The notes below the pieces were generated by a model. It was not told where the DNA came from. It was given only the letters and a program-made list of their open reading frames with translations, and made no database searches. This document shows, piece after piece, positions 933 through 17,041 of a stretch of DNA of 64,000 bases (position 1 is the stretch's first letter; each line of letters begins with the position of its first letter). The position numbers and the translations under genes are program-made. This stretch comes from Ignavibacteria bacterium RIFOXYB12_FULL_35_14 (lineage in GTDB: Bacteria > Bacteroidota > Ignavibacteria > Ignavibacteriales > Ignavibacteriaceae), in the NCBI GenBank assembly GCA_001803045.1, contig MHAR01000048.1, forward strand, positions 1 to 64,000, given 5' to 3'.

Positions 933-1403
933 TTATCTCCTTATCGGAAGAGGAAATTTTCTGAGATAGATGATCACGTTATTGATGTCGTTTCTCCCAA
1001 GTACATCCTTCCACCTCGGCATTTCCGTAGATTTACCTACAGATGCACCGCCATTGCTGATGATTTCAAAAAGATATTCATCCGAGAGTGAGTTCATGTA
1101 CGCTGTATCGGCGTGATTGGCTGGAGGAGGGTTAAGCGTGTAACTGTGCAGTCCATCTCCTTCACCAGTAGTTCCGTGACATCCCGAGCAGTATCGCTGA
1201 TAAAGCCGCTCACCAATCATTTCTCTTCGTGTCAACAGCGAATTATCAGAAAAAAAATTTGATTGCACCTTCTTTTCTGATTTACAACCGACAAGTACAA
1301 AGAAAAACAGCAGAAGACAAATTCGAACCAAAGCAAATCGCAAATTGGAAATCTCCGCCTGAGTCGGCTGTGCCTCTGGCACAGAAAATTGTAAATCACC
1401 CAT
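933..1403 (-). CDS. Monoheme c-type cytochrome lipoprotein
   Basis: Small class I cytochrome c of about 156 residues. A hydrophobic segment ending in LVGC is a lipoprotein signal, so the protein is probably anchored in a membrane facing the periplasm. One heme motif, CSGCH, is followed by GTTGEGDG; TEMPRW near the C-terminus offers the axial Met. The ATG at 1403 overlaps the stop of the octaheme cytochrome gene (TGATG), which argues for translational coupling and for this start over the TTG three bases upstream. It is the last gene of the cytochrome operon and is probably an electron acceptor or shuttle for the complex. Confidence 0.88.
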   Translation of the reverse strand: MGDLQFSVPEAQPTQAEISNLRFALVRICLLLFFFVLVGCKSEKKVQSNFFSDNSLLTRREMIGERLYQRYCSGCHGTTGEGDGLHSYTLNPPPANHADTAYMNSLSDEYLFEIISNGGASVGKSTEMPRWKDVLGRNDINNVIIYLRKFPLPIRR

Positions 1404-3886
1404 CAATAACTCAAAAGATATTTCGTTATGAGCAGTGCTTCTTCATCAGATAAACCCAGGACAGGTTCCAGTGTGGCTGGGTCGAGCGTTTTGGGATTCT
1501 TGATCCACTGGAAGATCCACCCCGCTGTTCTCCTCTCACGGATGTTCATATCGGTTGAGACTAACTCCGGTCCCATCGTTCCCCCTTCATAGTTGATTTG
1601 ATGACACGACTGGCAGCGATACTTTTCATGGTAAAGTTTTCGACCCTGCTCGATCTCTGGCATAGAGAATTTTTCGCCGCTCAAGAACTCTGAAGGAACT
1701 TTCTCATTGACCAGCGTAGTTCTCATGTAGTTTATGATGATATCGATTTCCTTATCGGTGAGATTGAATTTCGGCATTCGCTCGACAAGTGTTGGTCTCA
1801 GAGTCGTCGGATTACTCAGGAATTTCTTAAGCCATGCAGCGTTAGTACGACTTCCCTGGTAGGAAAGGTCAGGGGCAAGTGTACCTCCACGACCATTGAT
1901 CTTATGGCATGTCAAACAATTCAAATCGGTAACCAACTTCCCAAATTCTCCCGGCGGTATGTAGCTGCTTTCGGGTTGTCGCCTCAGAATGAATGGCTCA
2001 GGTGGATGTTCTTCTGTGAATCCAAGTAGAACGGTTGAGAAAGCTCTTGATTCTTTTATTCCGAATCCGTAATCAGGCATCTTCTGGGCGATTCTCTCAG
2101 TAGCAAACGCTCGGGGGTTTTGGAGTTTTGAGAGAATCCAGGCTTCCTTTGTACGGGAAATATTTGTCACATCTCCAAAATCAAAATTCTCGATTGGTTT
2201 GTCCCCAAAGAATGTCAGGTCGGCACCGACTTTTCCACCAACAGCTTCTTGTCCAACCGGATCATGGCAACCGAGACATCCATACTCGATCACAAGTTTT
2301 TCACCTCGCTTCACTTCTCCAGAGGAGTAAGCAAAGTTTTCATCCTCCGATGATATTTCAGAAGTTTTCAGACTATTGAGATAGGTAATGATCTTCAGGA
2401 TTTCTTGGTCAGTGAATCGATAGCGAGGCATTTTAGTGTTGGGCTGATACGCTCTTGGATTCTTAATCCAATCGAAGAGCCAATCCAACTGTACCTTAGT
2501 GGTGATGTTCACTAAATCGGGAGCAATTGTTCCGCCTTTGCCATCTACGAGATGACAACTAATACATCGAGCCATGCGAAAGATAGTTTCTCCCTCCTGG
2601 ATCCATCGAGCATCTAAACTCCTCACCGTGATGCGCTGCGGTTTCGGCTTTTGCTCACTCGCATCCAGCAGATATGCTCGTACGTCATTGGCTTCGTCCT
2701 CCGTAGAGTGGAAATTCGGCATCTTTGTTTGTGGAAGATAACTCTTCGGATTCAAAATCCAGCGCATTATCCATGCAGGTTTCACTTTAAAAGCAATCCG
2801 ATTGAGCGGTGGACCAATGTTCGGAACTTTAACATACCCTTCAACATTGTGACATCCGAGACATCCTGACGACTCAAACAATGATCGTCCATCGGAAAGA
2901 GTTGGTGACTCAGGAAATTCTAAATCTTCATGACACTTGCCGCATAGACGCTCACGAGTTCCTTCTCCGAGCAGCGGATTGTGGTAGAATTCAACCTTGC
3001 CATGAGCCGATCTCGCCGTCAATGCAACACCTTGTCCGCCATGACAGGGCGTACAACCAAATTTTTCGACAGGATGGAGATCCAGCAGATACGAATGACG
3101 TGTGAATGGCTCTTTCTCGTTTTCAAATCCTGGCTTGTCAGCACCAAGATGGCACGTCATACACCGCTCCACACGACTGATTCTCCCACCGAAATTATTA
3201 TCGTCAAAGTCCAGCAGAATGATCTGCTTAATCTCTATTGATCGTGATTTGATTGCTTCGATTTTTCTTTGCCATGAAAGAATATCGGCTCTCAGAGTAG
3301 TCAAACTATCTCTTAGACTCTCAATTTGTTGGACAAATCCACGAATCTGCTTTTGAAGAGTCAAACGCCGCTTCTGTGCATTTGCAAGTTCACCCGAGAG
3401 TTTTTCTTTTTCTCGCTCTAAGTGATCGAGCTGTTCTTTTTCTCGCTCGGCTTTCTCACTTCTATGAAGTGCTGTCTTGTATCGATAGTATACTTCATCA
3501 GATTCACTGCGAGTAAACTGAAGTTTCCGGGAAAGTTCAGCGATGTGTGACTCAATTTCCTCCAACTCCTTCGTCAATCTCCGATACTTATCATCTTCCA
3601 GTGCAGCCTCGGCGGACTGTAAATTGTGCTGGAGTTCTGAATATCGAGATTGAACTTCCATGCTCTGGAATGTTTGTTCAGCGTTTCGAAGTTCGACTAC
3701 TGCCTTTTGAAGCTCAAGCTCATTGAAATCTTTTTGGTACGCTTTCCAGGGTCTGCGCACCCAGACTTCATCAATTACCGCCCAGATAGTTGTCACCGTC
3801 AATAGTGCGGCACACACAAAAAAGATCGCTCCATATCTTCGCTCTTCAACCGGAATCAATCTTCGCTGTTTGAAAATCCTTATCAT
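1403..3886 (-). CDS. Octaheme cytochrome c with N-terminal membrane anchor and coiled-coil stalk
   Basis: About 827 residues. One membrane helix (~19-37) is followed by a long charged heptad-rich segment (~60-220) predicted as a coiled coil, then eight CxxCH motifs at about 242, 278, 315, 342, 441, 537, 657 and 758. The first three sit in a His-rich multiheme region. The last five are tandem class I cytochrome modules, each with a W-x-x-x-x-NP motif; four end in a KMP or RMP methionine ligand, while the last has EPVLGL and no Met. The start at 3886 overlaps the ferredoxin stop as ATGA; 24 residues upstream of it are probably not translated. The hemes should lie in the periplasm, receiving electrons from the Rieske/cytochrome b subunits. 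Confidence 0.88.
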   Translation of the reverse strand: MIRIFKQRRLIPVEERRYGAIFFVCAALLTVTTIWAVIDEVWVRRPWKAYQKDFNELELQKAVVELRNAEQTFQSMEVQSRYSELQHNLQSAEAALEDDKYRRLTKELEEIESHIAELSRKLQFTRSESDEVYYRYKTALHRSEKAEREKEQLDHLEREKEKLSGELANAQKRRLTLQKQIRGFVQQIESLRDSLTTLRADILSWQRKIEAIKSRSIEIKQIILLDFDDNNFGGRISRVERCMTCHLGADKPGFENEKEPFTRHSYLLDLHPVEKFGCTPCHGGQGVALTARSAHGKVEFYHNPLLGEGTRERLCGKCHEDLEFPESPTLSDGRSLFESSGCLGCHNVEGYVKVPNIGPPLNRIAFKVKPAWIMRWILNPKSYLPQTKMPNFHSTEDEANDVRAYLLDASEQKPKPQRITVRSLDARWIQEGETIFRMARCISCHLVDGKGGTIAPDLVNITTKVQLDWLFDWIKNPRAYQPNTKMPRYRFTDQEILKIITYLNSLKTSEISSEDENFAYSSGEVKRGEKLVIEYGCLGCHDPVGQEAVGGKVGADLTFFGDKPIENFDFGDVTNISRTKEAWILSKLQNPRAFATERIAQKMPDYGFGIKESRAFSTVLLGFTEEHPPEPFILRRQPESSYIPPGEFGKLVTDLNCLTCHKINGRGGTLAPDLSYQGSRTNAAWLKKFLSNPTTLRPTLVERMPKFNLTDKEIDIIINYMRTTLVNEKVPSEFLSGEKFSMPEIEQGRKLYHEKYRCQSCHQINYEGGTMGPELVSTDMNIRERRTAGWIFQWIKNPKTLDPATLEPVLGLSDEEALLITKYLLSY

Positions 3887-4143
3887 ATAATTATTCTCAG
3901 TACCATTGCAATACATTCCCAAGGACACTCTTTCACACACAATGTGCAGCCTGTGCATGGTTCTTCAATCACATGGCAGACATTGGTGAGAATTTCGGGA
4001 TTAGGATTTCTCACAACAGTGATACAGTCCACCGGACAAAATTCGATGCACACCTCACAGCCCGTACATATCTCTTCATCAATGAGCGCAACCAGCTTTG
4101 ATTTTTTCTTGGTGATAACACGAGGTTTGGTCTCTTCAATCAT
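3883..4143 (-). CDS. 2[4Fe-4S] ferredoxin subunit
   Basis: 86 residues with two full cluster motifs, CTGCEVCIEFCPVDC and CTGCTLCVKECPWEC, the bacterial 2[4Fe-4S] ferredoxin pattern. No signal peptide or membrane helix is visible, so it should sit on the cytoplasmic side. ATG at 4143 overlaps the stop of the cytochrome b subunit (ATATGATT), and its own stop overlaps the octaheme start in the same way; this start is preferred to one eight codons upstream. Such tight coupling to a cytochrome b half and a multiheme cytochrome suggests a built-in subunit rather than a soluble carrier. Its redox partner is unknown. Confidence 0.9.
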   Translation of the reverse strand: MIEETKPRVITKKKSKLVALIDEEICTGCEVCIEFCPVDCITVVRNPNPEILTNVCHVIEEPCTGCTLCVKECPWECIAMVLRIII

Positions 4144-4997
4144 ATATTGAACCACGGTGTAACCCATACATACTTGATGTTCAAGGCAATACGGAGAAAC
4201 ATTTTAATCGGCAGCGCTAACATCGTCAGCAGCAGAAAGACAACAATGCTGTAGCGGATGATGCCAAACTTCTTCATGAACTCTGGATGCTTCTTCTTCA
4301 AGTAAAAATAGAAAATGACTCCCAAGAAATAGTAACCGCTCACTAGAATTCCACCAAAGACCGATGACCAAAAGTAGGATCGAATACCAAAGAGGTACGG
4401 AAGATCCACATTGGTTAAGGCAACTATGCGATGCACATCCCATGCTTCCCATGGATAGAAAAAATACCAGCCAGGTCCACGAAAAAATGTTCCGATGATG
4501 ATCAGTACCACCCACAACATATATCCGAAGCCGAATACAATTATGGCAAACTTCCGCTGATGAAAACTATAGTATCCGCCCCCACGTGGATTGGTATCGA
4601 TATAAGGGATTATCATCAAGCCGACAATTATCAAACCAGGAAGGATAACACCGGCAATCCAGGGATCAAAATAGACCAACATTTCTTGTAACCCAAGAAA
4701 ATACCAGGGAGCCTTTGCAGGATTTGGTGTTTTACTGGGACTAGCGAGTTCTTCGAGCGGTGCATCAATTGTAATTGACCAAACGGTCAAGATGACCATG
4801 ATAAGAAGAGTAGCCAAAAATTCAATGCGTGTCAGATAGGGCCAGCAATGAACCTTGTCGATATTTCTATTGACACCATACTTATCATTCTTTACTGCTT
4901 GACTCATGCCGAGCCAATAGTAAAACAATACAAGCAACAGCATTCCGGCGATAGGAATGTTGTCAGGGAGTGTCAAGATGTGAAAGAATTGTTCCAT
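4140..4997 (-). CDS. Cytochrome b C-terminal half / b6f subunit IV-like membrane protein
   Basis: 285 residues with about six hydrophobic helices. The segment NPAKAPWYFLGLQEML matches the region around the quinol-oxidation (Qo) motif of cytochrome b C-terminal domains, but the usual PEWY reads APWY, so the catalytic Glu is absent. Longer than b6f subunit IV (about 160 residues), with extra C-terminal helices. It is the partner of the cytochrome b at 7931-8698, from which it is separated by about 2.9 kb of rearranged DNA. ATGA overlap with the downstream ferredoxin. No clear Shine-Dalgarno precedes its ATG; a 25-codon remnant ORF with a good one lies just upstream and could provide translational coupling. 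Confidence 0.88.
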   Translation of the reverse strand: MEQFFHILTLPDNIPIAGMLLLVLFYYWLGMSQAVKNDKYGVNRNIDKVHCWPYLTRIEFLATLLIMVILTVWSITIDAPLEELASPSKTPNPAKAPWYFLGLQEMLVYFDPWIAGVILPGLIIVGLMIIPYIDTNPRGGGYYSFHQRKFAIIVFGFGYMLWVVLIIIGTFFRGPGWYFFYPWEAWDVHRIVALTNVDLPYLFGIRSYFWSSVFGGILVSGYYFLGVIFYFYLKKKHPEFMKKFGIIRYSIVVFLLLTMLALPIKMFLRIALNIKYVWVTPWFNI

Positions 4998-5010
4998 GTA
5001 ATAAAAAATT

Positions 5011-5088
5011 TTAAAGACCAGACAACAATAAGGTTACTTTTACAACAAAGAATGCTGACCAAGCAAGTAAGAATTTCTTAGCGTTCAT
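5011..5088 (-). pseudogene. N-terminal remnant of a membrane protein paralogous to 6240-6647
   Basis: A 25-codon reading frame beginning MNAKKFLLAWSAFFVV with a good ribosome site (GGGAG) before its ATG. Its first residues match the membrane protein at 6240-6647 ([16 protein letters not shown]), but it ends after LLLSGL with TAA, 13 bases before the start of the subunit IV-like gene. I read it as the surviving head of a truncated paralog; it may still act as a leader ORF for the next gene. A genuine tiny leader peptide is the alternative. Confidence 0.6.
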
Positions 5089-5141
5089 GATTTATCTCCC
5101 TTCTTTTCTAACCTCTTGCAGGTTCACGACCTGCGGGAAAG

Positions 5142-5888
5142 TTAATCCTCATCCCCATCACGATCGTTATCTCGGAACACCTTGATTGATGCTTTCAGGT
5201 TTTGATCGATAATATCTTGATTACTTGAGTCTGTAGGATCAAGTAGAACACCACTAAGCCCTAGAAACCATCCTTTTGAACTAAAGCGTAGTGTGACTGT
5301 AACATTGGGATTAGAGGAAGTAATCACGAGTGGGGGATTGAGATCATATTTTTGTTCTTCATTAACTCTGCTGCGGTAAGTGAATGGTTGACCTCCCGTC
5401 CCATTCTTGAATACCATTCCATCGACGATCATACTATACCGTTCGCCTGCGAGGAAATCAGCAAAGAGAGCACGCTCTGCTGGAGTAAAGTTGTCAAGAT
5501 CGTAATTGTTCACACGGTGAATTACAAACCCAACCTCTCGATACGTACCAAACTTTACCGCAGAAACATCGATTTCATGTACTGCGCCACTGATATTGTA
5601 CTCAACAACTATCGGTGCGGTTCTAAACTCTACACTATCGTTGTCACTTTCAAATTTGATTCGCTTCAGTACGAGCCTGAACCGGGTGACTTGAATTGAA
5701 TCGACTGTAAAGGGAGTCGCATATATGTCACCCAGTCGATTCAACTGCAGAACAGGTGTTAGTGAATACTTCGTTAGGAGTGAAATCTGTCCAGTTTGGG
5801 GTGCTACTATTTCCTCTTTGCATGCGAAGGTAACAATCGCTATCCATATTAAAAACAGCAGAAAAAGGACTCTAAAGATTTTCCCCAT
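5142..5888 (-). CDS. Secreted lipoprotein of unknown function
   Basis: 248 residues with an N-terminal hydrophobic segment ending ATVTFAC-type (IVTFACKEE), a likely lipoprotein signal. The rest is beta-rich with alternating hydrophobic residues and no cysteines, heme motifs or metal sites that I can see; the C-terminus ends in the acidic tail NDRDGDED. The overall look is of a DUF4382-like or related periplasmic beta-sandwich lipoprotein, but I cannot assign a family. GGAGAAG precedes the ATG. It lies inside the cytochrome operon region, between the broken cytochrome b and the subunit IV gene. Confidence 0.75.
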   Translation of the reverse strand: MGKIFRVLFLLFLIWIAIVTFACKEEIVAPQTGQISLLTKYSLTPVLQLNRLGDIYATPFTVDSIQVTRFRLVLKRIKFESDNDSVEFRTAPIVVEYNISGAVHEIDVSAVKFGTYREVGFVIHRVNNYDLDNFTPAERALFADFLAGERYSMIVDGMVFKNGTGGQPFTYRSRVNEEQKYDLNPPLVITSSNPNVTVTLRFSSKGWFLGLSGVLLDPTDSSNQDIIDQNLKASIKVFRDNDRDGDED

Positions 5889-6053
5889 AATAACTTCTCC
5901 TCGTATATATTATGTTTGTGGGTAATTAATAGTGTTAATTAAGTCATCAAATTTCTATATCTAAATTTTTTTTCATTTTTTATAGCATGTCTTTAATCTC
6001 TTTACACTTGATAATAATTAGTTATAACACATTAGTATTAACATATAGAATTA

Positions 6054-6236
6054 TTAAATTTTCTCTGACGGTCTAGAAATCCCGCCATCCTTTCGCACTC
6101 TCCAGAAATGCACAATCATAAAGCCACAGCCAGAAGTGGAAGGGCGATACAATGCAAGACGTAGAAACGTAAAAGCGCCGGCGGTCCAACTTGCGTACCG
6201 CCGAGCAAAATCATTAAGCCTGTCATGACCACAGCA
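6054..6236 (-). pseudogene. Cytochrome b 3'-end fragment, frameshifted
   Basis: This stretch repeats the last ~55 codons of the cytochrome b at 7931-8698: [26 protein letters not shown] and then [21 protein letters not shown] can be read, but in two frames because one base is missing between them (around 6120). DNA similarity to the intact gene is well below identity, so this is the remnant of a diverged paralog, not a recent copy. It starts right after the stop of the membrane protein gene at 6240. The protein that one frame would give is not credible as a functional product. Confidence 0.88.
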
Positions 6237-6239
6237 CAC

Positions 6240-6647
6240 TCATTGCTTGCCGGTTCCGTAAATAAGCCCAATAACAATCCCACCAATCCCCTCCTGGATC
6301 ACATGCCAGGCGGAATCAACTACGACGCCCGCCAATGGATAGTTCCATAATCCGTGCATTTGGACCGACCAGGGGAGCATCCAGATGATTCCTATCAACG
6401 CACCGAATCTAAAACCTTCTTTTACTGGCGAGCCGCCTTTGTATCCAATCGGATACGCAAAGGCCATCAGGAAGGCGAGAATAAGTTGCCCCAGAGCTAC
6501 AAAGAGCATGTTCTGTTCTGCCCGGGCCAACGCAACGTCATTTGTCCTGTAGAAATCTCCTAAGAGGACAACGTGCCAAAGACCAGCCAACACGAAGGTT
6601 ACAACAAAGGTTGCTAACCAAGCTAATAAGAGCTTCTTTGTGTTCAT
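6240..6647 (-). CDS. Four-helix integral membrane protein, unknown function
   Basis: 135 residues with about four transmembrane helices (near 7-27, 45-65, 80-97, 105-128). A Trp/His-bearing segment ([10 protein letters not shown] near the first helix, [11 protein letters not shown] in the middle) may face the membrane surface. No family recognised with confidence; it looks like one of the small DUF-type inner-membrane proteins. GGAGAAAC precedes the ATG. A truncated paralog head at 5011-5088 shows that a second copy once existed next to the subunit IV gene. Confidence 0.72.
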
Positions 6648-6784
6648 GATTGTTTCTCCTATAAAGTTGTGATGAAAATGCTACTATTTATTGTAGCTAA
6701 TTTGTTTTGTACTACACTCTGGGAATCCTCTAAAGGAATCCTTCGGACGTCCCTTTGGGAAAAGCACATTGGGTCAGCCCGTTG

Positions 6785-7874
6785 TTAGGTGCAGGATTAT
6801 TTCTCGCAACTGATTAATCCAAATCCAGGCGCATGTAATTTTCTTAATTGCTGATTACTGAAGCCTGCGTCATTAGCCCATGCTCTTACCTCATAAAAAG
6901 AATAAGCATTGCCATTTGCCTGATGGAATAAGTTGAGTGCCATAAATGATGTGGTCGCCTTGGACAGTTGGCTATTGCCGCCAACACCTTTTATCTGGTC
7001 AAGAATGATTAATTGGCCGCCTTTGTTCAAGGATGAAAAAATCTTTTCAAACAACGACTGATTCTGTTCGGGTGTCAAACCATGTATGATGTTGAAAAGT
7101 AACGCTGCATCATTGCCCTGCGGCAGATCCTCTTTCATAAAATCGGTTGCTTCAAATTGAACGCGACTTTGCATGGAGTGCATTTGGATACATTCGTCCG
7201 CATATTTTCTGACGGTTTCAAAGTCAAGAATGGTAGCCGACAGGTTGTTGTTCCTTTTACAAAGTTCAATACTGTACTGTCCATGCGAACCGCCAAGGTC
7301 TATCAATTTAGGAGTATTCGGTGGAAGTTTTATTTTACCTGCTACTTCCTTCAGATTTGTCCTTGAAATTTCAATCATAGCACGGCTGTATAATTCCCAC
7401 TCATGTTCTCCAAAGACATCGTAATTAATCTTCGATGGTTTTCCATGAACGATGGTGTCTTCGAGGCTGATGATTGAATTGAAAAGCCAGTCGCAATAGA
7501 GAATAAAGTATCTAAAACTGTCAGGAGAGTTTTTGTCCAAGAACTTCAACCCTCTTTTTGTAAATTTCCACCCTTTAGAGTTTCTTTCGGTGTATCCCAT
7601 TGCTTCAAGACAGTCTAACAAAAGCTCTACACCTTTTTCACTTACCGAGCATTGTTTGGCAATTTGAGCGGAGCTTTTTTCTTCGCTGCTCAATTGATCA
7701 GTGATTTTCAACTTGACTGCAACGCCTAAAGCTTTTGCAAGACCTACATTGCTTCCGATATCAGTAAACGGATGTGCAATAATGTCCTTATTTAGGAGCA
7801 TCTTTTCGATGAAGTTGAATTTGTAAATCATGGCTATATCCTTTTTGTGTGGTATTTAATCTTGCACCTGCTAA
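6785..7874. repeat. Imperfect inverted repeat flanking the O-methyltransferase gene
   Basis: TTAGGTGCAGGATTATTT at 6785-6802 overlaps the stop of the methyltransferase gene; its imperfect inverse, TTAGCAGGTGCAAGATTAAAT on the minus strand (7854-7874), lies just before the start. Next to the first, the minus strand reads CACCTAACAACGGGCTGACC, resembling the end of an integron attC site, but no matching GTTRRRY core is found at a suitable distance. The methyltransferase may have arrived as a cassette. Confidence 0.4.
6797..7831 (-). CDS. SAM-dependent O-methyltransferase (family 2 type)
   Basis: 344 residues. An N-terminal winged-helix/dimerisation domain (~20-105) is followed by a Rossmann methyltransferase with SAM motif LIDLGGSHGQYSIEL (~190) and the downstream acidic residue in ILDFE. 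This is the layout of O-methyltransferases acting on small hydroxylated substrates (acetylserotonin/caffeate O-methyltransferase fold, also bacterial polyketide enzymes). AAGGATATAGCC before the ATG supports the start. With a type III polyketide synthase 2 kb away it could modify a phenolic or pyrone product, but it splits the cytochrome genes and is flanked by an imperfect inverted repeat, so it may be unrelated cargo. Substrate unknown. Confidence 0.82.
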   Translation of the reverse strand: MIYKFNFIEKMLLNKDIIAHPFTDIGSNVGLAKALGVAVKLKITDQLSSEEKSSAQIAKQCSVSEKGVELLLDCLEAMGYTERNSKGWKFTKRGLKFLDKNSPDSFRYFILYCDWLFNSIISLEDTIVHGKPSKINYDVFGEHEWELYSRAMIEISRTNLKEVAGKIKLPPNTPKLIDLGGSHGQYSIELCKRNNNLSATILDFETVRKYADECIQMHSMQSRVQFEATDFMKEDLPQGNDAALLFNIIHGLTPEQNQSLFEKIFSSLNKGGQLIILDQIKGVGGNSQLSKATTSFMALNLFHQANGNAYSFYEVRAWANDAGFSNQQLRKLHAPGFGLISCEK

Positions 7875-7930
7875 GTAATGTTTCTTGTTATTGATTCGTT
7901 ATCGGCATGTTGCTTCCTTTGGTTAGCTGC

Positions 7931-8698
7931 TTATTCTTTCTCCGATGGTCTGGAAATCCCGCCGTCTTTCCTCACCCGCCAGAAGTGTACAATCATAAAG
8001 ATTGCTGCAAGCAGCGGAAGTGCGATGCAGTGAAAGACGTAGAAGCGAAGCAATGCCGGCGGTCCAACTTGCGTACCGCCAAGCAGAAGAAAACGAATGT
8101 CGTTATCCGGTTTCATCCCAAGCTCGGGTCCGAACGGACCCTCATGCCCGAGGAATGGCGTTGCACGTGCCATATTCGTTCCAACTGTAATTGCCCACAT
8201 GGCAAGTTGATCCCACGGTAAAAGATATCCTGTGAACGAAAGGAGAAGAGTCAATACGAGCAGCACGACTCCGACAACCCAATTGAATTCTCTTGGTGGC
8301 TTATATGACCCGGTCAGAAAAACGCGCAGCATGTGAAGCCAGACAGTAATCACCATCAGGTGCGCTGCCCATCGATGCATATTGCGGAGGAACATACCGA
8401 ACGGAACATCATGCTCTAAGTATTTCATGTCGGCATACGCATATTCAGCCGTTGGTCGATAGTAGAACATGAGAATTACACCCGTCACCGTCAGAACGAT
8501 GAACAAGAGAAACGTAATACCGCCCATCCCCCACGTGTAACGGATTTCGGTTGCATGACGCCACACGGATGTCGGATGCAGATGAAGGAACACATTGCTC
8601 ACAATCTGATGCATCCGGTTCGGCTTAGTGTCCTTGTAACCGTGCCGAAAGATAGATCGGTACAACTGCGTTCGTTTGATTTTCTCCATCGTAACCAT
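7931..8698 (-). CDS. Cytochrome b (b6-type N-terminal half) of a bc/b6f-like complex
   Basis: 255 residues, four transmembrane helices, two b hemes. His pairs are visible: MHRW...WLHM (14 apart) and VFHC...IVHF (15 apart). The 14/15 spacing is that of cytochrome b6 rather than mitochondrial-type cytochrome b (14/14), matching a split architecture with a separate C-terminal subunit. Start chosen at 8698 (MVTMEKIK) because GAAAGAAAG precedes it and it falls 14 bases after the Rieske stop; an upstream start would overlap the Rieske gene. Quinol oxidation/reduction in the inner membrane, with the Rieske protein. Confidence 0.92.
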
Positions 8699-8712
8699 TA
8701 GATATCTTTCTT

Positions 8713-9267
8713 TCAAACTTTTAGAAACGACCCTGGTTTTCCCCACTCATCTCTTTCAAACAGGAACTTCACACTCTTGTCTACGACCAACTCACCGTTT
8801 TCATTAAGCATGATTTTTATTCGTTCAAGCGGACGTGGTGCTGGTCCTTCAAAATTAATACCACTTAGGTGAAAACCGCTGCCGTGGCAAGGGCACTTGA
8901 ATTTATTTTCCGTCTCTAACCATCTGGGCGTACATCCTAAGTGTGTGCACACTGCCGATAATGCATAGAATCCTTCCTCCTCACGCACGATCCAAACCTG
9001 TTTTGATTTCAAGTACTTACTGCTGACTTCACCGAGAGCATATTCATCGGGGAAACCAGCCTTAAAGACAGGTGATGCCTCGAACAGCACGCGCGGGAAG
9101 AAGAACCGGATTGTTCCGAGGAGAGCCGTGCCAAGAAAAGCGAAAACCGCGAGCCATCCGGTGAGGGAGAGAAAATCACGCCGGGTAATCCATAGACCCC
9201 GTGATTTGTCGATAGGGACTTCCTTTCGGAGAGGTGTTGTGTTCCGAGCTTGTTCTGAGAGCGTCAT
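8713..9267 (-). CDS. Rieske [2Fe-2S] iron-sulfur protein
   Basis: 184 residues. [11 protein letters not shown] at the N-terminus is a twin-arginine export motif directly before the single membrane anchor. Cluster motifs CTHLGC and CPCHGSGF are intact (two Cys and two His ligands). Start at 9267 (MTLSEQ) has AGGA ten bases upstream. It transfers electrons from quinol at the Qo site to a periplasmic cytochrome, here presumably the octaheme or the monoheme protein. Followed immediately by cytochrome b, as in qcr/pet operons. Confidence 0.94.
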
Positions 9268-9411
9268 TTTTGTTTGTCCTGAACAAACCACTTGGGCCTG
9301 TTACTATCTTGTTCGCGCCAATACTTATTGCAGCGCAATGATTCTATACCGTCTCCGTTATTCGGCATCGCATTTTGATGATTCCCAGCGCTACGTTTTA
9401 CGAAAAACTGC

Positions 9412-9816
9412 TTATTCAATGATGACCTTTCCACTCATCCCGAAATGGCCGATTCCGCAAAAGTGTGAACAGCGAAAGCCATACTCACCTTTTTCTTGAG
9501 CGTAAAATTCAATGACTTTGGTCTCCCCTTCTTCAATCGTTTCATCAATTCCAAAATCTCCGAGTTTAAAGCCGTGCGTACCGTTGATGCTTCTAACTTT
9601 GATCTGGACGAGCGTCCCAACTTTCAGGTGGAGTTCATCGGGTGAGAAGTGATACCGCTCGGCAGTCATCTCAATGGTTTCTTTCGGAACATTTGAACGA
9701 TCAAGCTCTTTCGGAATTGCCTGGTAATTCTTTGAGGTTGAGCAGCCGCTGAGAAAGAAAAGAACACAACAAGAAGCGAGTAACGAGATGTTGATTTTCA
9801 AATGCGTTTTCTCCAT
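9412..9816 (-). CDS. CuA-type cupredoxin lipoprotein (COX2-like soluble domain)
   Basis: 134 residues with a lipoprotein signal (LFFLSGC, Cys ~22) and one cupredoxin domain. The C-terminal motif CSHFCGIGHFGM gives the C-x3-C-x3-H-x2-M pattern of the binuclear CuA centre, and GTHGFKL supplies the other His. The two-helix membrane hairpin of a true oxidase subunit II is missing and no oxidase subunit I gene lies nearby, so this is a free-standing electron carrier, probably membrane-tethered in the periplasm. The Glu that normally sits between the Cys ligands (CSEIC) is His here. It sits between the polyketide synthase and the Rieske gene. Confidence 0.87.
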   Translation of the reverse strand: MEKTHLKINISLLASCCVLFFLSGCSTSKNYQAIPKELDRSNVPKETIEMTAERYHFSPDELHLKVGTLVQIKVRSINGTHGFKLGDFGIDETIEEGETKVIEFYAQEKGEYGFRCSHFCGIGHFGMSGKVIIE

Positions 9817-9910
9817 TTTCTTTACTATAATTTAGAAGACGAGATTGAGATTCGTCCTGCAACTTTTGTGGAATTGTACTGTCCAAGAATCCGGAATTCG
9901 AGATTCACAC

Positions 9911-10990
9911 TCACCATTGCAGCAAGGCTCCCTCAATAGCAAGACCAGGCCCCAAGGCTAGCATAATACCCATGGTGCCATGCTTGGGTTTCACATCATT
10001 GGAGCCCCGCAGCGTCTCCTGCAAGACAAAAAGGACGGTAGGCGACGACATGTTTCCGAAATTGTTCAGCACGTATTTGCTATGGCGGACTTGTTGATCA
10101 GTTAAGCCTATTTCTCGCTGCATGCTATCGATAACCTTTCGACCCCCCGAATGAAGGATCCAGTGTGATATCTGTTCTTTCGTAACACCATAGCTTTTCA
10201 GCATCTGATCAATCAGTTTACAGGCCAAACCTCCTGCAAGATCACGAATGTCTTTCGAGAGGATAATCCGCAGTTTCCCTTGCCGCTGCTCAAATCCTAC
10301 GGAGTCGATGTATGACGGCTCGAGGTATGTCTCAAACCCAACAATCTTTGGAATGGTCTCTTGTTCACCCATTGCGACGACAACGGCTGCTGCACCATCG
10401 GCACAAATAGCATTTCCCACAACTGTTTCGAGCGAGTCATCGAGGAAGTAGCATGCGGAACAGATTTCCACTGCAATGAGCAACGCTTTCTTGTTGGGAT
10501 ATGCCTTTACAAAATCATAAGCTCGCTGCAATCCTGACATAGCACCCGCACAACCCATCCCGAGCAAATCCGCTCGCTGGACATTGTTTCGCATCCCCAA
10601 TTCTTTTCCTAAGAGTGAAGAAAGGCCAGGGCAAAGATACCCCGTACACGACACAGCAATTATACAGTCGATATCTTCTACGTCGACCCCGCCGGCCGCT
10701 AAGCACTTTTCAATGGCTTCTTTCGCAATCGTCATTGCACCACGCCGGTAACGCTCATGCAACTCGTCGGCTGTTTCTAAACCATCGAAGGACTCTATGT
10801 CCAAGTAGAGGTGGCGATACTCAATGTCGCTATTCATAAACACTTGTTGGACACGCGGACTGCGATAAAACTCCGAGTATTTGCAAGCAAGTGCATATAT
10901 CTCCTGCTGGGAGTACCGGTTTCGTGGATTTGAAGTCGCGATTGAGAGAATCGCCAGTTGACTACTCCGCTTTTCTAGCAAAACATCCAT
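9911..10990 (-). CDS. Type III polyketide synthase (chalcone synthase-like)
   Basis: 359 residues, full length for the family. The catalytic triad is visible: Cys in LLGMGCAGAMSGL (~149), His in WILHSGGRKVID (~289) and Asn in NNFGNMSSPTVLF (~322). The enzyme condenses malonyl-CoA units on an acyl-CoA starter to give pyrones or resorcinolic/phenolic lipids. HSGGRKVID rather than HPGGP hints at a relation to DpgA-like enzymes; that is inference. It is co-directional between two copper-protein genes of a respiratory cluster, an odd place, so its product may be an electron-transfer or membrane lipid; equally it may be unrelated. Confidence 0.9.
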   Translation of the reverse strand: MDVLLEKRSSQLAILSIATSNPRNRYSQQEIYALACKYSEFYRSPRVQQVFMNSDIEYRHLYLDIESFDGLETADELHERYRRGAMTIAKEAIEKCLAAGGVDVEDIDCIIAVSCTGYLCPGLSSLLGKELGMRNNVQRADLLGMGCAGAMSGLQRAYDFVKAYPNKKALLIAVEICSACYFLDDSLETVVGNAICADGAAAVVVAMGEQETIPKIVGFETYLEPSYIDSVGFEQRQGKLRIILSKDIRDLAGGLACKLIDQMLKSYGVTKEQISHWILHSGGRKVIDSMQREIGLTDQQVRHSKYVLNNFGNMSSPTVLFVLQETLRGSNDVKPKHGTMGIMLALGPGLAIEGALLQW

Positions 10991-11039
10991 GGAGAAACCT
11001 GCAATTGTGATAATTATAATACCGAAGATGAATCATGCG

Positions 11040-11639
11040 TTATTCGTCCAAAAAGAAGTCAACAGTCACACTGCCTTCTTGCCGTATAGTAATCTTTGAA
11101 TTCTTTGACTTAAATTTCGGATGCCATATAACAAGAGTATAGTCTCCGGGCGGTACATCCGAAATCTTATACTTACCCTGCTTATCAACCATTGCAAAAT
11201 ATGGATTCTGCAAAACGAGAACGAACGCCGACATTTCAGGGTGAACGTTACACAGCAATGAGACAACACCGGTTTTCTCGAACGTGACTTTCTTTGTAAT
11301 ACCGGCCGGGTATGTTCCAAGGTTAAATTTCTTTGTCTTGGATGGAGAAAAGACGTTATGCCGTATCGAATCACTGTTGGGGAAAGCCACAGTTGATCCG
11401 ACAAGAACCGGTAACACATGCGGCACAAAGGTCATCCGTATCTGATCCACAACGGGGTTCTTGTTGGGCAGAGGGAATAATCTTCCCTCGATTTTTTCAA
11501 TATATATCAGCGCATATTCAACGCCTTTCCCGCCAAGAACTTTCACATTACCTTTGATATCGCCAGCGTTCACCATACGGACCGATGAGAAAATTACTAT
11601 GTTGATCGTGATTGCCAGTATTGTAAGTTTTGATTTCAT
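11040..11639 (-). CDS. Periplasmic type 1 copper protein with carboxypeptidase-regulatory-like tail
   Basis: 199 residues with a signal peptide. A plastocyanin-like domain (~60-150) has the type 1 copper ligands: His in IRHNVFS and Cys, His and Met in LLCNVHPEM. A C-terminal beta domain (GKYKISDVPPGDYTLVIWH) is of the carboxypeptidase-regulatory kind. Proteins of this layout are often annotated as methylamine-utilisation or plastocyanin-like proteins. AGGAGGG directly before the ATG, 14 bases after the cytochrome-porin stop, puts both in one operon. It is a candidate electron carrier between the outer-membrane cytochrome-porin and the inner-membrane complex. Confidence 0.85.
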   Translation of the reverse strand: MKSKLTILAITINIVIFSSVRMVNAGDIKGNVKVLGGKGVEYALIYIEKIEGRLFPLPNKNPVVDQIRMTFVPHVLPVLVGSTVAFPNSDSIRHNVFSPSKTKKFNLGTYPAGITKKVTFEKTGVVSLLCNVHPEMSAFVLVLQNPYFAMVDKQGKYKISDVPPGDYTLVIWHPKFKSKNSKITIRQEGSVTVDFFLDE

Positions 11640-11653
11640 TAATTCAGCCCTCC

Positions 11654-12970
11654 TTAGAAAGCAATCATTGCGTTAATCCTGAAGACCCTAAAAGCTCTTT
11701 TTTCACTTGGGTCCTTTTCGACACCGTCAATCGTCCGCTTCTCATCCACCCGGAATCTTCCCTCGATACTGAACTTAATGTTCGCACGGTAGAGTATAGT
11801 GATGTTGGGATTAATTTCCCAGTACTTATCCCGATCGTCATCAACGAGTTTCGATTGAGCGCGATTCACCCGAAAAACACCGATCAGCCACGGATAAAAG
11901 ATATAATCGACTTCGCTAAAATAGGCAGTGTGCTTGAGCTTCTTAAGGTTACCAAAGGGGTTTTCATCTTCACCCAAAATGACTCCACCCGTAAGTTCCA
12001 TTCGACCATACCCTGCACGCAGATCAAATCCAAAACGATTGAAATTATTACTATATGTTGCACCACCTTCACTTGGTGTCTTCAAATAATTTCCAACATA
12101 GGTGTATGCACCAACGGTCACCGCATTATCTTCCCAATTGTCGGTTTCTTTCAGTTCAACATCGGCGCCAGAACCATCGAGTCCCATCCCACCAACTTTA
12201 TATGCAACTCGTGCAAATACATCCTTTCGATCTTTGAATGGTGTAGCTTTCCCCTCACCATTCAGGACTCCAGCAGAGTATTCAAATCGACTCTCAAGTA
12301 TACCATTGATTTCAATGCCCGTCTGGTTATCTCGTGGACGCCAATCACCGGATGCTTTGTAATCGATTGTGATTGGGCGATCAAGTGTAATGCGGTTTGC
12401 ATTCATATAGCCACTCGTTATTCCCGGTTCTATGCGGCCAACTTTAATGTTGAGTGCGTCCTTTGGACCAACGATGTCATTGAACTGAAAGAAAAATCGC
12501 TGCATCCCAACAGCGTTTTGACCGCCTTCGAAGAAGATCCACTCCCCAAACAGTCCAACATCATTCCCGAAAGCGCCGCCGAATAGGAGTTCAAGTTCAT
12601 GCGGCATATCGAATCCTATTTTTTTACCTTCGGGTTTCAAAGGATCATACGTGAGGCGATTATGCACATAAACAGAGATGGGGAGGTTTGGAGGAATAAC
12701 CCCAGGCCAGATGGCATCGGGAAATGCTTCTTTCCAACCTTCGGCGCCTAAGCTTACAGGTTCTTCTTTTATGAGCTGTGCGTCCCCTTTCGGCAGAACG
12801 AAGCCATTACGCCGAAACGCTTCACCAAATGCATTGCGTTTGGGAATCGCTGTATGACAGGTCGTGCAGCTTGTTTTGTACTTGCGTGCAAATTCCGGGA
12901 TACCGTAGCTCTCTTCAGTGATCAGCAAGAACATTCCTGCTGTAACTATTATGAGTACCATATTTTTCAT
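11654..12970 (-). CDS. Outer-membrane fused cytochrome-porin (Cyc2-like)
   Basis: 438 residues. A signal peptide is followed by a single heme site in FARKYKTSCTTCHTAIP and then NAFGEAFRRNGF, and after that a long run of alternating beta strands ending in an aromatic C-terminal strand (INAMIAF), as in outer-membrane barrels. The same layout (one CxxCH, then N/F-rich FG motif, then a ~400-residue barrel) is known for Cyc2, the outer-membrane Fe(II)-oxidising cytochrome, and for related undefined cytochrome-porins. Start 12970 has GGAG at a good distance. Proposed role: pass electrons across the outer membrane; direction and donor are not shown by sequence. Confidence 0.8.
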   Translation of the reverse strand: MKNMVLIIVTAGMFLLITEESYGIPEFARKYKTSCTTCHTAIPKRNAFGEAFRRNGFVLPKGDAQLIKEEPVSLGAEGWKEAFPDAIWPGVIPPNLPISVYVHNRLTYDPLKPEGKKIGFDMPHELELLFGGAFGNDVGLFGEWIFFEGGQNAVGMQRFFFQFNDIVGPKDALNIKVGRIEPGITSGYMNANRITLDRPITIDYKASGDWRPRDNQTGIEINGILESRFEYSAGVLNGEGKATPFKDRKDVFARVAYKVGGMGLDGSGADVELKETDNWEDNAVTVGAYTYVGNYLKTPSEGGATYSNNFNRFGFDLRAGYGRMELTGGVILGEDENPFGNLKKLKHTAYFSEVDYIFYPWLIGVFRVNRAQSKLVDDDRDKYWEINPNITILYRANIKFSIEGRFRVDEKRTIDGVEKDPSEKRAFRVFRINAMIAF

Positions 12971-13044
12971 GGAATACTCCATATAAGTTTATGAATAATG
13001 TGAGTTAGAATAGATTTACACAAAATTTTTTAAACAGTATGCCT

Positions 13045-13461
13045 TCACTGTTGATCAAGAATCTTATTTTTTGAATACCGTGATTTCGATAAACTAAGAA
13101 CAGATTTTATAGTACGTTTCATAACTCGTAATTCAAGAGGCTTTGCCAACAATCTGTTAATACCCAGAGACTTGAGCCTCTGTTCAACTGCATCATCAAT
13201 CTGATTGCTGACAATGATAATTGGAAGGTGTGGCAGTTTGTGTCGAAGATTTGTTAAAAACAGCAGCCCGGATTCAATGTGTCCATTGAGATAATTTTCT
13301 GAGATTACAAGCTCAATTCGATGACGACTTATCATCCTTAACGCATCTTCAGTATTGCAGCATACGAGTGGACGATAGCCCTCTCCAGTCAGGAAAATGC
13401 GAAATGCCGCGAGAATGTTTTTGTCGTTATCGACAACGAGTATTTTATGCCGAGTATCCAT
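13045..13461 (-). CDS. Single-domain response-regulator-like protein, phosphoacceptor Asp replaced by Glu
   Basis: 138 residues from MDTRHKIL; receiver fold only, no output domain. The acidic pocket (VVDND), conserved Ser (IIIVSNQ) and Lys (LLAKPLE) are kept, but the phosphorylation site, normally D in a LVxxD motif, reads LVISENYL, that is Glu. A Glu here can mimic the phosphorylated state in other receivers, so this may be permanently on, or a decoy. An upstream TTG would place the candidate sigma-54 promoter inside the coding region, so the ATG is preferred. It is 74 bases before the cytochrome-porin and probably heads that operon. Confidence 0.8.
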   Translation of the reverse strand: MDTRHKILVVDNDKNILAAFRIFLTGEGYRPLVCCNTEDALRMISRHRIELVISENYLNGHIESGLLFLTNLRHKLPHLPIIIVSNQIDDAVEQRLKSLGINRLLAKPLELRVMKRTIKSVLSLSKSRYSKNKILDQQ

Positions 13462-13474
13462 CAGCAAACAATCA

Positions 13475-13490
13475 GACAAGGTCTGTGCCA
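13475..13490 (-). promoter_or_regulatory. Candidate sigma-54 promoter
   Basis: Minus strand TGGCACAGACCTTGTC fits the -24/-12 consensus TGGCACG-N4-TTGC with exact spacing and two mismatches (A for G, T for C). Predicted start near 13464, only a few bases before the ATG at 13461, implying an almost leaderless message. A regulator gene of the required NtrC class is next door. Confidence 0.5.
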
Positions 13491-13570
13491 AGAGTTACGC
13501 TATAAGAACCTTAATAACAAATATAAAAACGGGGATTTAGAGGGAGGTTGACTTCTTTAGACTATGGTTA

Positions 13571-13591
13571 ATGTCACTCTGAAAGTGACAT
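13571..13591. promoter_or_regulatory. Inverted repeat, candidate NtrC-type enhancer site
   Basis: ATGTCACT-CTGAA-AGTGACAT, a perfect 8-bp inverted repeat centred about 117 bp upstream of the predicted sigma-54 start point, the usual place for an upstream activator site. A third GTGACA half-site (13606-13611) lies 21 bp away, two helical turns. No T-run follows on either strand, so it is not a terminator. Confidence 0.55.
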
Positions 13592-13612
13592 GGGGAAACT
13601 CTCGGGTGACAG

Positions 13613-15013
13613 TTATGTTATGTGAAACTGTTCAGCGGTGAGATTGTGACGCTTGAGCATTCGATAAAGACTTTGACGACGTACCTTGGCAATCTTTGCA
13701 GCTTCGGTGATACTCCCTTTTACAGCAGTGAGGAGTTCCTCAAGGTATTTCTTTTCAAACTCTGCCAGAAAATCTGTACGTGCTTTGTGAAACCCGAGGT
13801 TTGAGAGAGGAATTTCTTCCAACCCGAGGAATAAGTTTTTCGAAAATGTCAAATCAACTGCATCGGCAGTAAGTACATTCCCTTTGCAAATAATCATTGC
13901 TCGCTCAATGATATTTTCTAACTCCCTGACGTTTCCGGGGAAATTATATTCTCGTAACTTCTCGATAACACCAGGTCCTATGGCAGTTATATTCTTTTCC
14001 AATATGGCATTGTACTTTGTGATAAAGTGATTCACTAACAGCGGCAGGTCATCTTTTCGTTCGCGCAGCGGCGGTAGGTGAATTGAAAGAACGTTGATGC
14101 GGAAGAATAAATCTTCACGGAATTGTTTCTGTTTGACGGCATCTTCTAAATTCCGGTTGGTTGCAACAATAAAACGGGCATGTACCTTTAACACATCATT
14201 ACCTCCGAGTCGTTCAAATTCTCGTTCCTGTAAGAGACGCAGCAACTTCGCCTGGAGTTTTTGACTCATTTCACAGATTTCATCAAAAAAGATTATCCCA
14301 TTTTTAGCTAACTCAAGCTTACCTATTTTCCGGTCCACAGCCCCTGTGAAAGCACCCTTTTCATGACCGAAGAGTTCGCTTTCAAATAAATCCTCTGGAA
14401 GCACTGTACAATTGACAACAACAAACGGCTCGGAGGCAGTTGGACCATTGTTATGTATCGCCTTGGCTACGAGTTCTTTTCCAGTTCCACTTTCACCCTG
14501 TAAAAGAACGGTTGTTCTGTTCGGTGTTGTAGTGATAGCACCAATGGTCTTGTACATTTCTTGCATCGCCGGTGTGTTACCAATGATTACATAAGGCTGC
14601 ACTTGCTTTTCGAGTCGTAATTGTAACTGTTCAACTTTTTTCCTGAGCTGAAACGTTTCCAGCGCTCTCCTTACGAGTAACCGAATTTTTTCTGCGTCCA
14701 GCGGCTTTGTAATATATTCATAAGCACCAAGTTGAATAGCTTTAATGGCAGTTTCCATCGTCCCGTATCCGGTTATGATAATGACAGGGACATTAGCCCG
14801 TTCTTTCATTTGTTCCATCACATCCAAACCGCTCATATCCGGCATCGTAACGTCTAAAAAAACAATATCAGGTTTCGCTGACTCAATCTTCAGGAGACCA
14901 TCCTTACCACCATTAGCTTCAACCACACTGTACCCTTCTTTTTCAAAAATCATTCTTACTGCAAAAAGAATATTGGGATCGTCATCAATGATGAGAATCT
15001 TTTCTTGTTTCAT
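13613..15013 (-). CDS. NtrC-family sigma-54-dependent response regulator
   Basis: 466 residues. Receiver domain (~1-120) with Asp in IVFLDVTMP; AAA+ domain with Walker A GESGTGKE, the sigma-54 contact loop GAFTGA, and IIFFDEI; Fis-type helix-turn-helix at the C-terminus (ITEAAKIAKVRRQSLYRML). The ATG at 15013 overlaps the kinase stop as ATGA, which fixes the start; 64 codons upstream in this frame are kinase sequence out of frame. It should activate sigma-54 promoters in response to the kinase, most likely the one just downstream at 13475-13490. Confidence 0.93.
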   Translation of the reverse strand: MKQEKILIIDDDPNILFAVRMIFEKEGYSVVEANGGKDGLLKIESAKPDIVFLDVTMPDMSGLDVMEQMKERANVPVIIITGYGTMETAIKAIQLGAYEYITKPLDAEKIRLLVRRALETFQLRKKVEQLQLRLEKQVQPYVIIGNTPAMQEMYKTIGAITTTPNRTTVLLQGESGTGKELVAKAIHNNGPTASEPFVVVNCTVLPEDLFESELFGHEKGAFTGAVDRKIGKLELAKNGIIFFDEICEMSQKLQAKLLRLLQEREFERLGGNDVLKVHARFIVATNRNLEDAVKQKQFREDLFFRINVLSIHLPPLRERKDDLPLLVNHFITKYNAILEKNITAIGPGVIEKLREYNFPGNVRELENIIERAMIICKGNVLTADAVDLTFSKNLFLGLEEIPLSNLGFHKARTDFLAEFEKKYLEELLTAVKGSITEAAKIAKVRRQSLYRMLKRHNLTAEQFHIT

Positions 15014-16923
15014 TTCACTGTCCCTCTGATAGGTAGAAGGATTGTAAACGTGCTGCCTTTGCCTTCCTGGATCTTCACAAGAATCACGCCGCCATGTTCG
15101 CTGACCACCCTTTTTGCAAGTGTTAATCCTAAACCGGTTCCATCGGTTTTTGTTGTAAAAAACGGATCGAAGATTCGAGCGAGATTCACAGGAGTGATGC
15201 CGCATCCGTTATCACTGATTTCGATAGTGATCACCTTCTCACCTTGTTTCAACTCGATGTAATTGCCAATTTTTGGAAAGAGATGGTACTCGGTGAGCGA
15301 AACACGAAGAGTTTCAGGGAGTATCAGTGGAGCTGTTTTGATTTTAACAATTCCATTGCCTTCGGTAACAGCCTGAGTAGCGTTCAGCAAAAGATTGATG
15401 ATGACCTCCTTGATACTTGCAGCATCAATAGTAAGGCGTGGGAGACTGGGAGCGAGATCCTCAACCAGAGAGATTTGTTTTCTCTCAAACTGATGGCGTG
15501 AGAATATGACACTTTCCATCACAATTTGATTAACATCCTGCATACTGAATTGCATTTCTTGAGGTCGTGCGAAATTCAGCAGCTCGTTGACGATTCCTTC
15601 CAATCGATACAGAGAACTCATTGCTACTCTGATAGATTCTTTTTCCTTGCGGTTTTTCAGCTTGTTCGACTCGGTAAAATACTGGAGAATGAGTTTAATA
15701 GAAGTCAGTGAGTTCCGCACCTCGTGCGCAATGACCGCAGCCAGTTCGCCGACAGCGGTTGCTTTTTCAGCCCGCACCATCTGATCCTGTAATCGCTTAC
15801 GCTCTGTAATATCGGTGATAATTTCAAGAATGGCATCGATCTGTCCATTATGCTTTATTGGAACCGCAGTATACTCAAAACAGATATTACTTTTATCCAG
15901 CTCGAGCAGGTGATTTTCAATATGTCCAGATGTGAGTGCTCTTCGTGACGGACACTGCTGAAGGGACGTGCCGTAATCTGTGCAAAGATTGCATATCTTA
16001 CCGTTGACATTTGTAGGGGAGTTCCGCGTTATTTTCCAATACGCAGCGCTAACTGATTGAATGCAAAGATTCCTATCCAGTAAAATCAATGCGCTGGGGA
16101 CACTGTCGAGAATGACCTGCAACTTGTTTTTTTCTTCTTCCAGTTCACGTGTCCTTTCCTTCACCATTTCCTCTAATTTCGTCCGGATTGAAAGCTCAAG
16201 TTGTTCTTTGAGCTTCCGCTCCTTCGTGAGAAATTTGTCCCCGCGCCTGGTGATAAACGATACAATCCCAATATGTGCTATGATAATCAGTAACGAAAAA
16301 AGTATGACGAGGTCACGGAGTGAAGAAATCTGGCTATAGATCATCGTCACATCCTGGTAAATTTCGAATGAACCTACAATTTCTCCTTCGTACTTCAAAT
16401 CAGAATCCATTTTGCGTAGAGGAATGTATGTCTCAAGGAAATCAACGGGGTGTGTATCATACACAATGTCGGGCTCTTCATGAGCAAGTTCCAGGCTCGA
16501 TACCAGCTCACCTTGTAATGCCCTTAGGAGTTTCAGATTCTTTGGTGTCGATTCACCAATGATTTCAGGATTCGTGCTGTAAATGAGTACAGTCTTCCGA
16601 TTGAAAATATTTATCTTTATTACTTCAAGATGTTCAAGAAATCTTCCGGCGATCTCGTCAAGGACTTTGAACTGAGTTGAATCCTTCGGGTTATATGTCT
16701 CGGGAGTCTTTTGATATGGAAGAAAAAAATGTTGATAGAGTTCGTGATTGAGATTTTTTGCTATTGCAACAGAATAACGTTCTGCCGATCCGATAAGGTA
16801 TTTTTTTCCCGTATAGTAAAATAGCATACCACCAACTGTAACAAGCGCAATAACCACAAGGATATATTTGACGGCAATGTACCTGAAGAGACTAAAATTA
16901 CCATCCGCTGGTGAGATATTCAT
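15010..16923 (-). CDS. Membrane sensor histidine kinase with PAS domain
   Basis: About 637 residues. Two membrane helices (~20-40 and ~205-228) enclose a periplasmic sensor of about 165 residues; then a coiled linker, a PAS domain with an unusual cysteine cluster (CNLCTDYGTSLQQC), the dimerisation box with phospho-His (AHEVRNSLTS) and the ATPase domain (NLLLNATQAV, DNGCGI, GTGLGL). Overlaps the NtrC gene by 4 bases, so the two form one unit. The PAS cysteines could bind a cofactor or sense redox state (inference). A GTG five codons upstream (16938) is an alternative start. Confidence 0.92.
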   Translation of the reverse strand: MNISPADGNFSLFRYIAVKYILVVIALVTVGGMLFYYTGKKYLIGSAERYSVAIAKNLNHELYQHFFLPYQKTPETYNPKDSTQFKVLDEIAGRFLEHLEVIKINIFNRKTVLIYSTNPEIIGESTPKNLKLLRALQGELVSSLELAHEEPDIVYDTHPVDFLETYIPLRKMDSDLKYEGEIVGSFEIYQDVTMIYSQISSLRDLVILFSLLIIIAHIGIVSFITRRGDKFLTKERKLKEQLELSIRTKLEEMVKERTRELEEEKNKLQVILDSVPSALILLDRNLCIQSVSAAYWKITRNSPTNVNGKICNLCTDYGTSLQQCPSRRALTSGHIENHLLELDKSNICFEYTAVPIKHNGQIDAILEIITDITERKRLQDQMVRAEKATAVGELAAVIAHEVRNSLTSIKLILQYFTESNKLKNRKEKESIRVAMSSLYRLEGIVNELLNFARPQEMQFSMQDVNQIVMESVIFSRHQFERKQISLVEDLAPSLPRLTIDAASIKEVIINLLLNATQAVTEGNGIVKIKTAPLILPETLRVSLTEYHLFPKIGNYIELKQGEKVITIEISDNGCGITPVNLARIFDPFFTTKTDGTGLGLTLAKRVVSEHGGVILVKIQEGKGSTFTILLPIRGTVK

Positions 16924-17041
16924 ATTCTTAGTTACCACGTTGAGATTCTCTCATTGTACATACGAGGTCAAGTTATCGAATTCAATTAAAATTTGCAAAG
17001 CGAAAAATATACAATACCCGAGACATCTGAAAAATAGAGTT

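Follow-up and report, generated by a model that had tools for sequence, protein, structure and literature searches.

Introduction

The three Cyc2 proteins that have been tested biochemically all oxidize Fe(II) (PMC8406198). Cluster 3 has been singled out as the least certain section of the Cyc2 family (PMC8406198). Even so, no other iron-oxidation marker is reported more often from marine sediments (PMC8446621), and cluster 3 is dominant at several deep-mine sites (PMC8478452). In marine sediments, FeGenie assigned it to Acidobacteria and Desulfobacterales, among other taxa (PMC8446621); at cluster-3-dominated sites, Ignavibacteriales were flagged for iron oxidation (PMC8478452). Here we analyze an operon of Ignavibacteria bacterium RIFOXYB12_FULL_35_14 that encodes a Cyc2-like cytochrome-porin next to a blue copper protein (cupredoxin), followed by a Rieske/cytochrome b complex. 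It lies within the first 64,000 bases (the window) of an 81,760-base contig, MHAR01000048.1, in a genome of 4.1 Mb.

A first-pass annotation of the window had proposed that a cytochrome-porin, two copper carriers and a quinol complex encoded at 8713-12970 form a trans-envelope electron route. All of these ingredients can be read in the sequence, co-directional on the - strand. The run is far longer than proposed, spanning about 930-16940 with all relevant genes on the same strand, and a type III polyketide synthase (PKS) gene between the two copper genes had been missed, as had the remaining genes of the complex downstream. The genes are transcribed in the order kinase, NtrC-type regulator, receiver, porin, cupredoxin, PKS, CuA protein, Rieske protein, cytochrome b6, O-methyltransferase, DUF1761 protein, lipoprotein-like protein, subunit IV, ferredoxin, octaheme c and monoheme c. 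Our analysis revealed that the conserved core of this system is the pair of porin and cupredoxin, and that its inner-membrane partner is interchangeable.

Results

The porin-cupredoxin pair was analyzed at 71 loci from many phyla, namely those in a collection of genome contigs with enough sequence. The cupredoxin is located on the strand of the porin and within 3 kb of it at 65 of the 71, with a median gap of 173 bases; the background expectation is 0.03 per locus. In family f26 (Chlorobiaceae-like, judged by its cyc2 genes and genome sizes), 33 of 36 strong porin carriers also hold the cupredoxin (hand count in the genomes drawn). The genome of the window (G000) contains a single full-length homologue of the window cupredoxin, which adjoins the porin. 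No published cluster of porin, cupredoxin and bc complex or alternative complex III (ACIII) was found in the literature searched, outside which lay most subscription journals and all preprints. As far as this literature shows, a fixed pair with exchangeable partners is an undescribed arrangement. For the single genes, the earlier claim of a new system was too strong, FeGenie surveys having already flagged Ignavibacteriales and cluster-3 Cyc2 (PMC8478452, PMC8446621).

The porin (11654..12982, - strand) is of the FARKY type, with one CxxCH plug and a predicted barrel. It consists of 442 residues, or 438 from the more likely start, the ATG at 12970, and its C-terminal residue is F. Cyc2 membership was judged by the criteria of Keffer et al. 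2021 (PMC8406198). The length is above the 365-residue minimum. The Cyc2-like N-terminus reported previously (GIPEFARKYKTSCTTCH...NAFGEAFRRNGF) reads exactly as given. It contains GIPEFARKY before the single heme site, CTTCH, and PKRNAFGEAFRRNGF after it, so that both CXXCH and the upstream PXFAR[Q/K][T/Y], here PEFARKY, are present. The heme motif is unchanged in all 48 aligned homologues. The leading A of AXP is G in this porin and A in most relatives. Downstream of the heme, PXL is replaced by PKR, and many other FARKY porins are of the PXL type; PXL is a consensus in the paper that set the criteria and not a screening criterion there (PMC8406198).

No Pfam or NCBIfam model matches the porin. 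AlphaFold2, run with 48 relatives, predicts a 16-stranded barrel (predicted local distance difference test, pLDDT, 84; predicted template modeling score, pTM, 0.81), consistent with the fused barrel of Cyc2. The strands are confident, and the N-terminal region around the heme site is poorly resolved. The top Foldseek matches of the model are general porins of the OmpF, OmpU and chitoporin types, and none of the solved structures is a sequence relative. By analogy with Cyc2, the porin is a putative Fe(II) oxidase.

The porin was placed in a phylogeny of 111 sequences, which included FARKY relatives of many phyla, relatives from the same phylum and Gammaproteobacteria. The reference rows for Cyc2 clusters 1 and 2 were set by motif and host and not by the published alignment. 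We take family f26 sequences with CHFQRYP, together with one gammaproteobacterial CHSQHFP sequence, to be cluster-1-like, and FARQTGMACAACHTVFPEL sequences to be cluster-2-like. The window porin groups with sequences from Zixibacteria, Bacteroidetes and Ignavibacteria within a large FARKY clade. This clade is split from the cluster-1-like and cluster-2-like rows with a Shimodaira-Hasegawa-like approximate likelihood ratio test (SH-aLRT) value of 99, and with 100/99 in a careful subset tree; the porin does not fall inside clusters 1 and 2. The FARKY clade is probably cluster 3, because the published motif allows K and Y and because of the published FeGenie calls, and its function is putative. 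According to the first-pass annotation, placement outside all Cyc2-like clades, among porins of other known roles, would have refuted the proposed electron route. The FARKY clade yielded no porin of established different function, so the proposal is not refuted on this ground.

The same genome contains a second, distant FARKY porin (L032:9440-10666, G000:C13), 35% identical over 180 residues. Relatives of this second porin at L048, L049 and L051 adjoin a tetraheme cytochrome gene.

The cupredoxin (11040..11639, - strand) has two domains. In 39 homologues, C130, H133 and M136 are invariant and H94 is conserved in at least 90%, as required of a type 1 copper site. The predicted model (pLDDT 93.7) is closest to the folds of purple cupredoxin and amicyanin, and the copper domain is amicyanin-like by sequence as well. 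The second, C-terminal domain is CarboxypepD_reg/fn3-like.

Partner counts are approximate, since neighboring genes were identified by BLAST against one or two references apiece. The pair is joined to a bc-type complex with octaheme c at 16-17 loci, often with a GltD-like flavoprotein. ACIII-like genes (molybdopterin, NrfD and pentaheme proteins) are attached at 14 loci, a Fer4_5 membrane protein with CuA at 9-10, and a bd-like protein at 3. The order histidine kinase, response regulator, porin, cupredoxin, bc complex is kept at L053, L080, L088, L092, L113 and L123. Genome G117 of family f26 encodes porin, Rieske protein, cytochrome b, subunit IV, octaheme c, monoheme c and cupredoxin on one strand (L140:3192-13216), followed on that strand by a small monoheme c and then a cluster-1-like cyc2. 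At L239, a more distant porin-cupredoxin pair is located just after COX1, COX3 and COX2 genes. The genome of the window contains several COX1-family (heme-copper) oxidase genes, whose products are possible electron acceptors.

The gene of about 485 codons beside CuA at Omnitrophota and Bacteroidota loci was considered as an oxidase subunit I and rejected; Pfam gives Fer4_5, not COX1. At a Desulfobacterales locus (L065:5188-12047), three extra CuA/cupredoxin genes are found upstream of the porin, one of them fused to Fer4_5.

In the window, the quinone-reactive complex is of the bc/b6f type. The Rieske protein (8713..9291, - strand) contains the ligand motifs CTHLGC...CPCHGSGF, and cytochrome b6 (7931..8746, - strand) contains four heme His residues in pairs 14 and 15 residues apart. 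Against the Geobacter ExtP model NF040969 (NCBIfam), cytochrome b scores 281.7 bits, just below the cut-off of 290. The remaining genes, all on the - strand, encode a petD/ExtQ-like cytochrome b subunit IV (4140..4997), a two-[4Fe-4S] ferredoxin (3883..4167), an octaheme c-type cytochrome with 8 CxxCH and an N-terminal coiled coil (1403..3958) and a monoheme cytochrome c lipoprotein (933..1406).

Several genes in the run are not part of the conserved core. The stand-alone CuA lipoprotein (9412..9816, - strand) has the lipobox LSGC and the motif C-x3-C-x3-H-x2-M (CSHFCGIGHFGM) with an upstream His. Its gene was seen in this form and place only in this genome and at L052 (= G802:C263), and not in L053 or the other bc-type loci. 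The type III PKS (9911..10990, - strand), a DpgA relative, scores 272 bits, below the cut-off of 425. Its relatives at 68-73% identity, in another family of the class, are not near porins; they are flanked by dihydrouridine-synthase-like and polymerase-X-like genes. Together, CuA and PKS form an insertion specific to the lineage. Both proposed copper carriers are encoded, and CuA drops out as a core step. The PKS was considered as the maker of a quinone-like carrier on the route and rejected as core on the location of its relatives; it is probably not part of the conduit.

Comparison to L052 suggested the origin of the operon. The identities are 94% for the kinase, 94% for the regulator, 92% for the porin, 83% for the cupredoxin, 95% for the PKS, 99% for CuA, 97% for the Rieske protein and 95% for cytochrome b. 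RpoB is 69% identical between the two genomes, which belong to different families of one class. Because most operon proteins are 92-99% identical while RpoB is 69%, the island was probably acquired horizontally from another lineage, with the proviso that the L052 contig is short and misbinning is possible. The operon region has a G+C content of 40-47%, versus about 35% in most of the remaining contig. Partial yihY copies (74-697 and 17658-18665) flank a 17-kb island; they are 94% identical over 300 bases and 17,671 bases apart, and the contig begins at a yihY copy.

In L053, whose RpoB is about 70% identical, the operon lacks PKS, CuA, methyltransferase and DUF1761, and these are therefore probably later insertions. 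Most likely, PKS and CuA were gained first, and methyltransferase and DUF1761 later. The O-methyltransferase (6797..7831, - strand) is an insert in this genome only, absent from L052, and the DUF1761/DUF2177 membrane protein (6240..6647, - strand) is part of it. Within 6060-8088, a degraded second cytochrome b tail is left downstream of this block. What is left of the original 3' end of cytochrome b (6060..6215, - strand) is closer to L052 than the present tail, which suggests that the block may have recombined in carrying its own cytochrome b tail, replacing the original 3' end. The lipoprotein-like protein (5142..5888, - strand) has no Pfam family and is present in L052 as well (81%).

Upstream of the porin, the run contains three regulatory genes on the - strand. 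The sensor histidine kinase (15010..16938; PAS_4, HisKA and HATPase domains) is in the same position in L052 and in L053 (63% in the latter). The NtrC-type sigma-54-dependent response regulator (13613..15205) contains receiver, Sigma54_activat (220 bits) and HTH_8 domains. The single-domain receiver protein (13045..13491), whose likely start is the ATG at 13460, is 92% identical in L052 and 78% in L053. A possible sigma-54 promoter, TGGCACAGACCTTGTC (13476..13491, - strand), departs from the -12 core at one position, and L052 has TTGC at the same place. Across loci, such sequences are modestly enriched (Fisher p 2e-4), with p=0.12 for the window itself; a kinase with a sigma-54 regulator is frequent upstream at related loci. 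The sequence weakly suggests a sigma-54 promoter.

Discussion

What is observed is the gene set, the folds or ligand motifs predicted for its products, and the conserved neighborhood of the porin with cupredoxin and quinone-reactive complexes. From these we infer an order of electron transfer, a substrate and a direction. Synteny in many phyla gives good support to the trans-envelope route first proposed from the window, and we lean toward the view that the operon is a conduit linking a redox partner outside the cell to menaquinone. The outer-membrane barrel, its lumen plugged by one c-type heme, would trade electrons with a partner dissolved outside the cell; the likeliest candidates are Fe(II) and comparable metals or shuttles. 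From the porin, electrons would pass to the periplasmic blue-copper protein, and from there through the monoheme and octaheme cytochromes to the complex of Rieske protein, cytochrome b6 and subunit IV at the menaquinone pool. Uptake, the oxidation of an extracellular donor, seems modestly favored over disposal. Three points speak for it: Fe(II) is oxidized by all tested proteins that have this N-terminal motif, phototroph-like genomes carry the conduit, and a related pair adjoins an oxidase.

The same conduit might run outward. The bc complex would oxidize menaquinol, and electrons would exit via octaheme c, cupredoxin and porin to an Fe(III) chelate, a humic quinone, selenite or tellurite. 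Several observations weigh against uptake and its Fe(II)-like donor. Cytochrome b most resembles ExtP, from the selenite/tellurite operon of Geobacter, and the ext proteins, linked to selenite and tellurite, rise during Fe(III) reduction (PMC5877670); the outward direction therefore stays alive. The main inner-membrane partners are quinone-reactive, not cytochrome c oxidases, and genes for iron oxidation as well as iron reduction have been listed for Ignavibacteriales metagenome-assembled genomes (PMC8478452). The porin is placed outside the cluster-1-like and cluster-2-like Cyc2 clades. In several family-f26 genomes with the porin module, no cluster-1-like cyc2 was detected, and others have cyc2 and no module, so that the module is not simply an iron-oxidation accessory. 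However, those cytochrome-porins with the N-terminal motif that have been characterized oxidize Fe(II) (PMC8406198), carriers are found in Chlorobiaceae-like f26, one of them beside a cluster-1-like cyc2, and the enzyme adjoining the related pair is a cytochrome c oxidase. On balance, export appears less likely than uptake.

At 15 of the 71 loci the pair is attached to a sensor kinase only, which also weighs against a respiratory conduit. These are L057, L058, L059, L061, L062 and 10 others, with a Cache-type sensor domain where tested (L057 and L061), and outer-membrane redox sensing is possible there. More generally, the pair could serve something other than growth, either by reporting an extracellular metal or redox state to a kinase, as the Cache/HAMP/PAS domains found where tested would allow, or by oxidizing toxic metal at the cell surface; a role in iron detoxification has been proposed for Cyc2 (discussed in PMC8446621). 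As a general explanation this is improbable, since the window and the bc, ACIII and Fer4_5 loci tie the pair to large quinone complexes, for which a sensor has no use. That the run is a chance assembly of unrelated redox genes and the porin an ordinary solute channel is very improbable. The lineage-specific CuA, PKS, O-methyltransferase and DUF1761 insertions would fit such an assembly, but the core order recurs across many phyla and the heme motif is invariant in the 48 homologues.

A broader reading extends the conduit beyond this operon. We tentatively hold it quite possible that the FARKY porin and cupredoxin are a phylum-spanning plug-in electron port, attached to whichever quinone complex, oxidase or sensor kinase is used, that some versions drive signaling instead of respiration, and that in green sulfur bacteria the port provides a quinone route distinct from Cyc2. 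The fixed cupredoxin partner and the defined quinone complexes are partners open to biochemical testing, and as a marker they improve on the porin by itself. They would tell whether surveys count iron oxidizers, electron exporters or sensors.

Like A. ferrooxidans Cyc2, Mariprofundus Cyc2PV-1 and Leptospirillum Cyt572, the window porin has a single N-terminal heme, PXFAR[Q/K][T/Y]...CXXCH and a barrel of similar length. It differs in having PKR for PXL, in its position outside the cluster-1/2-like clades and in its co-encoded two-domain cupredoxin, and iron oxidation by it is putative. The Acidithiobacillus rus and pet operons share the ingredients of outer-membrane cytochrome, blue copper protein, CuA protein and bc complex (PMC10654088). 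The analogy drawn with them by the first-pass annotation survives as a functional likeness only, given the separation of the porin from the cluster-1/2-like Cyc2 clades (100/99). In the window, the copper protein is amicyanin/plastocyanin-like with a CarboxypepD_reg domain and not a rusticyanin, and a single contiguous quinone-linked operon without an oxidase encodes a complex of the b6/subunit IV type with octaheme c.

Geobacter extHIJKLMNOPQS shares a porin, a Rieske protein, an ExtP-like b cytochrome, an ExtQ-like subunit and c-type cytochromes (PMC5877670). In contrast to the window, that cluster contains a rhodanese and many more multiheme cytochromes, and no cupredoxin is described in it. 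The Mariprofundus Cyc2-Cyc1-ACIII model also joins a cytochrome-porin to ACIII (PMC5566968), as the 14 loci with ACIII-like genes do for the FARKY porin. Here the carrier is a cupredoxin and the genes are adjacent, and the window version uses a bc complex.

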